Source: Erysipelotrichaceae bacterium
GTDB taxonomy: Bacteria > Bacillota_I > Bacilli_A > Erysipelotrichales > Erysipelotrichaceae
DNA length: 57,949 nt
Assembly: GCA_009773735.1 (NCBI GenBank)
Contig: WSYG01000002.1
Location: 1 to 57,949, forward strand
Direction: 5' to 3'
A model generated the notes under the pieces. It saw only the letters and a program-made list of their open reading frames with translations, had not been told where the DNA came from and searched no databases. The translations under genes were made by a program, and so were the position numbers. Positions 49,512 to 53,642 of this stretch are shown piece after piece (the first letter of the stretch is position 1; every line of letters begins with the position of its first letter).

Positions 49512-50154
49512 TTAAATCTCCTTTTTTAGTTTAGCACTTTTGAGTACATTTCGAAATCTAAATATTGATAAACCCTTATTCAACTTAGCATTTTTGATCT
49601 CTAAAAGTATAAAAAAAACAGCATTTGACAGCATTTAAACAGATTTTATCACTTAAAATCAAAGAACAAATGATTCAATAAATGACGATTTGAATTCAAT
49701 ATCTTTTATCTATTTGATTTTCCTTTCTTTGAGAATCGACATAGGTCACTTTATACCAGATGGTTGATCAATTTAGTTTGTGAGGGTGTAATAAATCTTG
49801 GATTATTGACTTTTGAACAATTTACCGCATCTTGGAAAAGATATAGATCTCCATTATTTCAAGCATCTATCCATGTCTTAATTGTGCAAAATTATTTGAC
49901 TGTGGTGCTGAAGGAAATTTAGCAATATTAATTAAGATTAGCTACAAGATTAATTTAGGATTCTATTTTATTCACTTTAATCACTAAAATCAAGTTTTAG
50001 AGTATAATAAAAAAAAGTAACGAACACAAAGAGGGTTATTAATAACGTAAATTTTCCAATTCTTCAAAATGTCATTCCGTGTTTATTATGTTTCTCTATT
50101 GAGAACAACTTTGAGATTAAACTGAAATTCAATTAGTAAAGGAAAATTGTAACA
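49512..50154. other. 643-bp AT-rich intergenic region
   Basis: Between divergent operons. The left end holds the promoter of the DUF1648 gene. A TATAAT near 50005 may serve the plus-strand operon at 50155, which would give a leader of about 140 bases. No reading frame with a ribosome site, no hairpin with a T-run and no known riboswitch pattern was found. A nine-base direct repeat (ACAGCATTT) occurs twice at about 49618-49637. Confidence 0.5.
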
Positions 50155-51273
50155 ATGAAACTGAAGTTTTGTTTATATCCACTAATTGTGAGTCTGATAC
50201 TTTTTTCGGCATGTGCATCTTCTAAACAAACCATTAAGCTCGGTTTTGCTGGTGGATTATCTGGAAGTGGTTCTAATCTTGGGATTGATGGTATGTATGG
50301 AGCACTGCTTGCAGTTGACGATATCAATAGCCAAAGCGGAATAAATGGACAAGAATTCGAACTTATTGTTAAAAATGATCAAAATAATCCAGAGCAGGCT
50401 TTGAAAGTCGATAAAGAACTTATAGCTGCTGGATGCAACATAATTATTGGACATATGATTAGTAGTGTTGCTTTGGATACGGTACCATTTATTAATGAAA
50501 AAAAGGTATTAATGATAAGTCCAACTATTGCCAAGGATGAATTATCTATGTTAGATGATCATTTTATTCGACTCATTCCCAGCAATTTAACTCAAGCAAA
50601 CTTGTTATCAGAGACAATCATTAAATTAGGTATCGCTAATCTTGGAATTCTTTATTCCAAGAATAACATGTTGTTTGCAAATACTTTTATACAAGCAATA
50701 AATGACAGTGTAATAAATAGTAAGACCAAAGTAGTAGCCAATATTGGTTTTGATCTCAATGAAGAATTGAATTACGGTCAATTGGTTGCTGATTTTAGAG
50801 AGCAAAAAGTTGATGGGCTACTAATAATTGCATCTGGAGACATTGTCGCGACATTTGCTCAATATTCTAGTCTACTTTCCTATAATCCAAAAGTCTTTCT
50901 ACCCGCTTGGGCTATGACCAATGATTTAATAATTAAAGGCGGAAAATCAGTCGAAGACTATTATGGAGTCAATTATATTCAATTAGACTCAATAAACCCT
51001 GATTTTTTGAGTTTTAAAACAAAGTTTCGGAACAAATTTGGCACGGAACCCACATTCAGTGCCATTATGGCTTACGAGTCAGTTATGCTGGTCGCTTATG
51101 CAATTAAATCATCTCGATCAAGTGATCCTATGGTTATAAAAAAGTCGATTACTAAAAACAATAGTTACTATGGAGTGTTTGGGGATTTGATAATCGATGA
51201 ATATGGTGATGCGACAAGAAATATCAATTTGTTTCAGATTCGAGACGGGAAATTTGAAATGGTACAACCATGA
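50155..51273 (+). CDS. Type I solute-binding lipoprotein (LivJ-like), probable sensor partner
   Basis: A 372-residue lipoprotein with lipobox FSAC (Cys20), then the Peripla_BP_6 pattern of branched-chain amino acid/amide binding proteins: LGFAGGLSGSGSNLG and DDINSQSGINGQEFELIVKND. No permease or ATPase gene is nearby. Instead its stop overlaps by four bases the start of a Cache-GGDEF-EAL membrane protein. That suggests it binds a ligand outside and signals through that partner rather than feeding a transporter. Its ribosome site is AAAGGA eleven bases upstream. Codon use looks more AT-rich than in neighbouring operons. Confidence 0.8.
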   Translation: MKLKFCLYPLIVSLILFSACASSKQTIKLGFAGGLSGSGSNLGIDGMYGALLAVDDINSQSGINGQEFELIVKNDQNNPEQALKVDKELIAAGCNIIIGHMISSVALDTVPFINEKKVLMISPTIAKDELSMLDDHFIRLIPSNLTQANLLSETIIKLGIANLGILYSKNNMLFANTFIQAINDSVINSKTKVVANIGFDLNEELNYGQLVADFREQKVDGLLIIASGDIVATFAQYSSLLSYNPKVFLPAWAMTNDLIIKGGKSVEDYYGVNYIQLDSINPDFLSFKTKFRNKFGTEPTFSAIMAYESVMLVAYAIKSSRSSDPMVIKKSITKNNSYYGVFGDLIIDEYGDATRNINLFQIRDGKFEMVQP

Positions 51274-53642
51274 AAAAAAGAACGCCGAGACTATTTGAAA
51301 CACTCTTTGCATTGGGTTTTATTTCCATTTTTGTTTCGCTTTTTTTAGCATGGCTTTTGGTTTCAAATAGTCTCACTAATTATTTTATTAATGTCGCTGT
51401 AGAGCGTAACTTGGAAATATCGAATTCAATTACAGCATATATTGATGATAAGTTAAGAGAAGCACTTAGCCAATTGAACCTCATACGTGAATCGATAGAA
51501 TTTAATAAATCATCTGGTTCTGAAATCAATGATTTGATTCTACAAATGAATCAAATTAATCAATCTTTTGTAGGCATAGAAGTTGTCAGTTTTGAAGGAA
51601 AGGTTGTATACACTTTGCCTCAACACTCTAGTGAAATTGGGTCTGATCGTAGTCGAGAAGCATACTTTAGAGAGTTTGAACGTGAAATGGATGTCTATTG
51701 GTCTAGTGTTCAGATTTCACCGTATACCAATTCAAATGCAATTACGATTGTTGTTCATAGTCGAGATGGTTTTCTAGTTGGAAATTTAGATCTTAAAGAG
51801 ATTCAAGAATTGTCGAATGTATACTTAGAGATATTTGGTGAACACAAAGAGATTACTATTACAGATCGAAATGGGATATATCTAGTCAATAAAGATATAA
51901 GTTTAGTAGTTGAAAGAAGACTAGATCCACATCATTCAATGGCTGTTGATATCATCAATGGTGATGAAGTATTTTTGCATAAAGAATCAGGACTAGAAAC
52001 GGTTTTAATCACGTCAACTCAAATACCCAGTACAGGTTGGATCGCTAGCATATCTGAACCTTATTACAATGCAATCGGGGGGATAAATTACATAATTGGG
52101 ATTTTGATCTCGTTTGTAACCATAATGCTATTGGTCTACACTCTATTGCTGTGGAGAGGGAATTCAAAGGTTATTCAGGATTTACGGAATTTTTCTAAGA
52201 GATTGGTAAATGTTTCACAGGGTATTGAGACTAATTCCGGTAAAGGTAATTTTAAGGAGTTTGAATCCCTAAACGAGTCATTCAATGTTATGGTGGACAA
52301 AATTGCTGATCGAGACAAGAAACTCTCGAACTTAGCATATCATGATGCATTGACTGGTTTTCACAATCGAGCTTATCTTGAGGAATTAATTTTAAGTCTT
52401 ATGAAATCACCCGAAAAAGAGTATGCAGTTATTTATCTGGATCTAGACAACTTCTCGCATATCAATGATACCTATGGTCATCAAGTAGGCGATCAACTAT
52501 TAATAGAATTCAGCAAGCAACTTGAATTGTTACTAGATGAGAGTATAGATATTGTCCGCTTAGGAGGGGATGAATTTATATTAATTATTCGTGCCATAGC
52601 AGACTTTGAAAAAGCAATTCTTGACCTTGTATCTAAGATAATGTCAATATCCAGTAGTCCATTGAAGTGTAATGATAGGCTGATCTATTTTACTATGAGT
52701 ACTGGCATCAGTTTTTATCCTAATGATGGAAATGAATTCTGGACGATACTCAGAAATGCAGACACTGCGATGTACCAGGCTAAAGCGGTCGGAAAGAATA
52801 CATCCAGCTATTTTACTCAAGATATGAATGCGTATATTGAAAGGCGACTCTTAATGGAGCAGCATTTACGTCCAGCAATCAAAAATGGAGAATTCAAGCT
52901 GGAGTTTCAACCGCAGTTCTCAATTGATGGAAACATTATACGAGGATTTGAGGCTTTGGTGCGTTGGGATAACCCAACTTTAGGTAGGGTAAGCCCTGTT
53001 GATTTTATCGCTATCACAGAAGAAAATAAGATGATAATTCCGCTTGGAAGATGGATCATGAAACAAGCATGCGAAAGTATAAAAATTCTGAATGACAGAT
53101 ATGATATGCAATTTGTTATGGCAATCAATGTTTCTCCTTTAGAATTAAAAGAAGCGACATTTGCGGACAGTGTAATAGAGATTATCAATGAAACTAATAT
53201 TCAACCACATTGGTTGGAGATTGAGATAACCGAGAATATGTCCATAGACAAGTATTTGTCTTTAAAGATTACATTGGAGAAGCTTCATCAGTACGGTGTT
53301 AGTATATCAATCGATGATTTTGGAACCGGCTACTCATCGTTAGCTTATTTACAAAATATCCCACTAGATATTTTGAAAATTGATCGAACCTTTATAACTC
53401 ATCTTGGAGAGGCTAATGATCAAAATTTGATGACTGAAACAATATTTTTAATGGCTAAAAAACTAGGGCTTATGACGATTGCTGAAGGCGTCGAAACTGC
53501 TCAACATATTAATTTTTTGAAGGATCTTGAATGTGATTTTGTACAAGGATTCTTGATGAGTAAGCCACTTAGAATGGACAATTTAATAATCTTTATTGAT
53601 GAATATTTCAACAATAAGAAACTCAAAATTGATGATGTTTAA
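51270..53642 (+). CDS. Cache-domain diguanylate cyclase/phosphodiesterase (GGDEF-EAL)
   Basis: A 790-residue membrane protein: helix 1 (about 12-32), a double-Cache-like outside domain (about 35-265), helix 2 (about 273-298), a HAMP-like linker, GGDEF (motif 432-436) and EAL (about 525-780). The GGDEF motif is intact, but the RxxD inhibitory site before it is not (ESID). EAL residues are all present: FEALVRW, INVSPLEL, EITEN, DDFGTGYSS, LKIDR, AEGVET and VQGF. It should therefore make or break c-di-GMP, with the direction set by its sensor. It overlaps the lipoprotein gene, a likely ligand-binding partner. Confidence 0.92.
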   Translation: MKKRTPRLFETLFALGFISIFVSLFLAWLLVSNSLTNYFINVAVERNLEISNSITAYIDDKLREALSQLNLIRESIEFNKSSGSEINDLILQMNQINQSFVGIEVVSFEGKVVYTLPQHSSEIGSDRSREAYFREFEREMDVYWSSVQISPYTNSNAITIVVHSRDGFLVGNLDLKEIQELSNVYLEIFGEHKEITITDRNGIYLVNKDISLVVERRLDPHHSMAVDIINGDEVFLHKESGLETVLITSTQIPSTGWIASISEPYYNAIGGINYIIGILISFVTIMLLVYTLLLWRGNSKVIQDLRNFSKRLVNVSQGIETNSGKGNFKEFESLNESFNVMVDKIADRDKKLSNLAYHDALTGFHNRAYLEELILSLMKSPEKEYAVIYLDLDNFSHINDTYGHQVGDQLLIEFSKQLELLLDESIDIVRLGGDEFILIIRAIADFEKAILDLVSKIMSISSSPLKCNDRLIYFTMSTGISFYPNDGNEFWTILRNADTAMYQAKAVGKNTSSYFTQDMNAYIERRLLMEQHLRPAIKNGEFKLEFQPQFSIDGNIIRGFEALVRWDNPTLGRVSPVDFIAITEENKMIIPLGRWIMKQACESIKILNDRYDMQFVMAINVSPLELKEATFADSVIEIINETNIQPHWLEIEITENMSIDKYLSLKITLEKLHQYGVSISIDDFGTGYSSLAYLQNIPLDILKIDRTFITHLGEANDQNLMTETIFLMAKKLGLMTIAEGVETAQHINFLKDLECDFVQGFLMSKPLRMDNLIIFIDEYFNNKKLKIDDV

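Follow-up and report, generated by a model that had tools for sequence, protein, structure and literature searches.

Why does the gene for a LivJ-like solute-binding lipoprotein overlap that for a membrane-bound c-di-GMP enzyme, with no permease gene alongside? The initial annotation had suggested that the two products could form a two-piece extracellular sensor, in which a bound ligand would tune c-di-GMP synthesis or breakdown. In the window, i.e., the whole stretch of 57,949 nucleotides that was analysed, the pair consists of two plus-strand ORFs with the following features:

50155-51273, plus strand: LivJ-type solute-binding lipoprotein of 372 aa, proposed ligand-binding co-receptor (Pfam, fold, tree)
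50155-50214, plus strand: signal peptide and lipobox, to Cys20 (LILFSAC; sequence, with Cys20 invariant)
51270-51273, plus strand: ATGA stop/start overlap of the lipoprotein and enzyme genes (ORF sequence)
51270-53642, plus strand: dCache-GGDEF-EAL transmembrane c-di-GMP enzyme of 790 aa, proposed signalling partner (Pfam, motifs)
51306-51362, plus strand: first transmembrane (TM) helix, residues ~13-31 (hydropathy; helix 6-78 in the predicted structure)
51405-52043, plus strand: extracytoplasmic dCache_1 domain, residues 46-258 (Pfam, 50.6 bits)
52092-52148, plus strand: second TM helix, residues ~275-293 (hydropathy)
52335-52799, plus strand: GGDEF domain, residues 356-510, with the GGDEF motif at 432-436 and no RxxD I-site (Pfam, motif)
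52860-53567, plus strand: EAL domain, residues 531-766, with catalytic motifs intact (Pfam, motifs)

The ATGA overlap suggests translational coupling of the two genes. Because the neighbouring genes all lie on the opposite strand, the pair is an isolated two-gene unit. To its left are ABC exporter and regulator genes (assigned for some from Pfam domains), and to its right recD2 and CPBP-like and mnmA-like genes, the latter two named by eye. None of the flanking genes in the window encodes a permease, so that the earlier statement that there are no permease genes holds for the neighbourhood, but not for the genome, where there are nine matches to BPD_transp_2 elsewhere. The G+C content of the pair is 33-35%, compared with ~36-43% for most of the window, although the first 4 kb are equally low. 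The promoter region of the pair may lie in the 643 bases 5' of it (49512-50154), where there is no ORF of at least 100 aa; Rfam gave 0 matches there, as in the rest of the window.

The lipoprotein matched only three Pfam families, i.e., Peripla_BP_6 (residues 26-365, E 3e-40), ANF_receptor and Peripla_BP_5, and Pfam did not place it in the PotD polyamine-binding family. Cys20 is invariant in 7/7 aligned lipoprotein homologues. In an AlphaFold2 model (pLDDT 87.7), the nearest solved chain, by fold as well as by sequence, was pneumococcal LivJ (4gnr; Z 42.6, rmsd 2.4, 341 residues aligned, 20% identity in a PDB fold search), and the protein belongs to the Peripla_BP_6 fold family by both sequence profile and fold.

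The dCache_1 domain (PF02743) of the membrane protein, lying between the two TM helices, scored just above the Pfam cut-off (50.6 against 45 bits). Phosphodiesterases of the EAL type depend on the residues EAL, N, ExTE, DD, K, EGVE and Q. The window enzyme contains EAL, N620, ExTE, DDFG, K703, EGVE and QG, as expected of an active phosphodiesterase; it also carries the GG(D/E)EF motif expected of an active diguanylate cyclase. At the place of the I-site it reads DESI rather than RxxD. Thus, the main elements read from the sequence by the initial annotation were all recovered: the four-base overlap, a LivJ-like lipoprotein (Peripla_BP_6 match, lipobox cysteine and 4gnr as best match), a two-TM protein with an outside Cache domain and both c-di-GMP domains, intact catalytic residues in each of the latter, and the absence of the inhibitory RxxD site.

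A second strong match to the SBP was found among 98 genomes including that of the window, in a different genus of the same family (G040). This protein is 40% identical, and its gene adjoins, in a different gene neighbourhood, one for a dCache-GGDEF-EAL protein that is ~34% identical to the window enzyme; a complete Liv operon is also present elsewhere in G040. A two-row SBP profile, searched against 395 genomes of the class, then gave matches in G223, G131 (two copies) and G401, with E values from 6e-73 to 2e-49 (next, 3e-33), and a GGDEF-EAL partner adjoins the SBP in G223, G131 (contig C7) and G401. In G401 the order is reversed, with the enzyme first and four bases between the ORFs. With a five-row profile and 294 genomes of the order, we obtained one more match, in G626, outside the training set (428 bits; next, 146), and the partner was then found next door. 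Counting the window, the pair therefore occurs in six genomes representing five genera and three families, with 25-40% protein identity between the window pair and the other five.

A profile of the N-terminal half of the partner gave four strong matches among the 395 genomes of the class (448-473 bits, followed by 72 bits), and each of the four genomes concerned also has the SBP; because the profile was built with those four members, their scores arise by construction, which is not true of the absence of other strong matches. In a phylum sample of 392 genomes, drawn evenly and overlapping the other samples, strong SBP matches were confined to the window genome (G000) and G131. Within the genus of the window there was no strong SBP match in the seven other genomes, five of them less than 90% complete and two more than 90%. 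By these searches, the pair is patchy in its distribution. Beyond the phylum, the search consisted of scans of viral contigs, with 0 confirmed SBP relatives, and of wider genome contigs, where a two-row alignment search (two peptide patterns, of low sensitivity) gave 3 loci and the pair only at the record of G040 itself (JAHFCO010000011.1).

We also mapped the neighbours, within three genes, of 31 SBP homologues outside the window; these were among the best-scoring matches rather than a random draw, and G059, G049 and most lower-scoring SBP matches were left out. Five of the 31 lie by an EAL protein without LivH/M and 24 by LivH/M without EAL, while two lie by neither (the second G131 copy, and one in G149 where LivH is further off). 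Accordingly, 24 of the 26 unpaired homologues adjoin LivH/LivM, and there are no LivH/M genes in the six paired neighbourhoods. A tree of 34 SBPs placed the six paired proteins and the orphan from G131 on one branch with 100/100 support, apart from the Liv transporter lipoproteins. The partners also formed one group, with weaker support (71/85). However, the two trees disagree on G401, which joined the G131 orphan in the SBP tree and G131's partner in the partner tree (80/82), and for this reason duplication or partner exchange in the history of the pair is likely.

The G131 orphan (L070:4099-5223, G131:C13) has neither Liv genes nor an EAL partner next to it. Upstream are genes for a PAS-GGDEF-HD_5 protein, a VitK2_biosynth-type protein and a BPD_transp_1 permease, and downstream is a radical SAM gene.

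The genome of the window (1.94 Mb in 82 contigs, 99% complete) contains three Peripla_BP_6 genes, of which only that in the window lacks an adjoining permease. One of the others is part of an SBP-LivH-LivM-LivG-LivF set on contig C49, and the third belongs to a second Liv-like set on C74. The remaining BPD_transp_2 sets have binding proteins of other kinds, i.e., Bmp on C69 and C40 and Peripla_BP_4 on C64. The initial annotation had asked whether the pair co-occurs across genomes, and had named two findings that would speak against it: conservation in no relative, or pairing of the lipoprotein with a distant LivHMGF system. Neither finding was made: the pair recurs in five further genomes, once in reversed order, and both Liv-type sets in the genome have SBPs of their own, although as far as the sequence goes the lipoprotein might still serve a distant Liv transporter promiscuously.

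In LivJ, the amino acid ligand is hydrogen bonded by S79, A100, T102, Y202 and E226 (PMC13103812). We compared the six paired SBPs with 27 others, including LivJ and LivK of E. coli, by sequence alignment rather than structure superposition. The corresponding features in the window are:

50461-50463, plus strand: Ser103, equivalent to LivJ Ser79 (alignment; kept in 6/6 paired SBPs)
50530-50532, plus strand: Ala126, at the position of LivJ Thr102, which is lost (alignment; Ala, Ser or Gly in paired SBPs)
50905-50910, plus strand: Ala251-Trp252, at the position of LivJ Glu226-Gly227, the acid being lost (alignment; Trp in 6/6 paired SBPs and the orphan)

The equivalent of S79 was kept by all of the aligned SBPs, and was the only member of the set S79, T102, Y202 and E226 to be retained in the paired ones. 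At the T102 position all six had Ala, Ser or Gly, whereas 24 of the 27 others had Thr; at Y202 they had Ser or Pro (Tyr in 25/27 others), and at E226 Ala, Val, Met or Ser, with an acid in none (Asp or Glu in 25/27). The position of LivJ Gly227 is Trp in the six paired SBPs and the G131 orphan, and Gly in 26 of the 27 others, while Tyr18, present in 25/27 others, is replaced by Leu or Val in all six. Because the equivalents of T102, Y202 and E226 are lost, amino acids are poor ligand candidates, and an amino acid as the default ligand was dropped as the leading idea. The ligand is probably not an α-amino acid held in the manner of LivJ, and the earlier proposal to try candidate amino acids was probably directed at the wrong chemistry.

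The conservation of the pair, the separate position of the SBP clade and the provision of the Liv sets with their own SBPs support, at the level of sequence, the reading as a two-piece extracellular sensor. We hold it to be probable, with good confidence, that the two genes represent one receptor, in which the SBP is a dedicated co-receptor for the c-di-GMP enzyme. If the lipoprotein instead fed a distant Liv-type permease, and were merely co-transcribed with the enzyme, the two Liv-type sets on C49 and C74 would be the obvious destinations; SBPs can serve permeases encoded elsewhere, and E. coli livJ lies one gene apart from livKHMGF. However, a Peripla_BP_6 gene already lies beside each of the two, and the sets on C69, C40 and C64 have Bmp or Peripla_BP_4. 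The window lipoprotein itself does not fall among the Liv SBPs in the tree and has lost the residues with which they hold the ligand, so that we regard a purely transporting role as quite unlikely.

Transport and signalling can also be combined, as is known for SBPs linked to chemoreceptors. SBPs that stimulate receptors besides handing substrates to transporters are described in PMC9602780, and by these precedents the lipoprotein might deliver its ligand to a transporter as well as signalling to the GGDEF-EAL protein. Such dual use seems to us unlikely, given the lack of LivH/M in the six paired neighbourhoods and the divergence from transporter SBPs. The two proteins might, finally, be independent, with the dCache domain binding a ligand of its own and the lipoprotein being an accessory or unrelated surface protein. 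Amino acids or amines are direct ligands of many dCache_1 domains (PMC10104139), and the G131 orphan belongs to the paired clade without having an adjacent partner. Adjacency is nevertheless kept in six genomes, including the reversed arrangement in G401, which makes independence very improbable.

How does the proposed co-receptor compare with known systems? In Vibrio parahaemolyticus, a solute-binding protein, ScrB, reportedly controls the GGDEF-EAL enzyme ScrC. ScrB and ScrC are accompanied by a signal-making enzyme, ScrA, whereas no ScrA-type gene adjoins the window pair. In XylFII-LytS and TorT-TorS, too, a signalling protein in the membrane has an SBP for its co-receptor, as proposed here, but the output is a histidine kinase. 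The AmiC amide receptor (1pea, 1qo0) uses the same fold class for sensing rather than transport; it binds the regulator AmiR, while the proposed target here is a membrane c-di-GMP enzyme. The lipoprotein resembles LivJ and LivK in fold (Z 42.6 for 4gnr) and in belonging to Peripla_BP_6, but differs in the absence of an adjacent permease, the loss of T102, Y202 and E226, and the Trp at the Gly227 position.

The closest parallel is NspS-MbaA of Vibrio cholerae and Sinorhizobium meliloti, where, according to PMC9993111 and PMC8967002, the SBP gene likewise overlaps that for a membrane GGDEF-EAL protein (by 16 bp and 3 bp, respectively), a periplasmic domain lies between two TM regions, and docking of the SBP shifts synthesis and breakdown of c-di-GMP. 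By analogy, docking would alter synthesis or breakdown here too, and the best reading is a mechanism like that of NspS-MbaA, in which the SBP comes from a family unrelated to that of NspS. The latter is a polyamine SBP of the PotD type, whereas the window lipoprotein is of the LivJ type and its lineage Bacillota-like. The window enzyme has GGDEF and EAL motifs, unlike V. cholerae MbaA (SGDEF and EVL). Like MbaA, which is reported to be bifunctional (PMC8967002), it is possibly a bifunctional enzyme.

None of the literature matches listed refers, in its title or the start of its abstract, to the pairing of a Peripla_BP_6 SBP with a GGDEF-EAL protein. A J. Bacteriol. review gives SBP_bac_3, in RmcA, as the only PBP-clan family studied in c-di-GMP networks (PMC8846402). 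Few systems are known in which an SBP drives a c-di-GMP enzyme, and a second SBP family used in this way in a Bacillota-like lineage would, if true, mean that such an arrangement has had more than one origin.

Which activity might be controlled? The EAL core residues are invariant in 6/6 partners. The GGDEF motif is intact in three of them (those of the window, G040 and G626), whereas in G223, G131 and G401 it is degenerate; because of this, the output that has been conserved is more likely to be breakdown. The partners in the latter three genomes have KIS in place of KID, a change that may weaken phosphodiesterase activity. An RxxD site is present in none of the six. Outside the window, dCache_1 fell under the Pfam cut-off in G131 and G040 and gave no match in G223, G401 and G626. 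For the whole partner, the model was of lower quality (pLDDT 73.9, pTM 0.40), and PDB fold searches with it were filled by GGDEF-EAL structures, which were uninformative on the outside domain.

In the mechanism that we propose, the lipoprotein, anchored outside the membrane, would close on a small extracellular ligand, probably not a standard α-amino acid. In its open or closed form it would dock on the membrane protein encoded next to it, at the dCache domain, and docking would shift the balance between cytoplasmic synthesis by GGDEF and breakdown by EAL. Downstream effects on pili or surface proteins might be exerted via the c-di-GMP riboswitches of the genome.

In the window genome there are 19 matches to GGDEF against 3 to EAL, and none to PilZ, and for this reason riboswitches may be its main readers of c-di-GMP; it contains two of class I and one of class II. 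One c-di-GMP-I riboswitch (L190:1271-1358, G000:C25) ends 10 bases before a prepilin-type ORF (from 1369), which has an N_methyl motif and heads a run of ORFs on the same strand. The c-di-GMP-II riboswitch (L191:1495-1577, G000:C50) precedes a gene whose product is long, apparently secreted and matched by no Pfam family. Both genes are plausible readouts. We judge the odds to be about even that the system represents a new c-di-GMP receptor family, in which a LivJ-type lipoprotein left amino acid transport, lost the residues that hold amino acids, gained an invariant Trp in the cleft and now recognizes some other extracellular ligand on behalf of a Cache-GGDEF-EAL enzyme, the output being read by riboswitches that precede genes for prepilin and surface proteins. 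With those residues lost, the identity of the ligand becomes accessible to experiment, and the prepilin operon, linked as it is to a riboswitch, provides a readout. The second c-di-GMP-I riboswitch lies on another contig (L189:192-281, G000:C18), which also carries a pemK RNA motif (L189:1933-2029).
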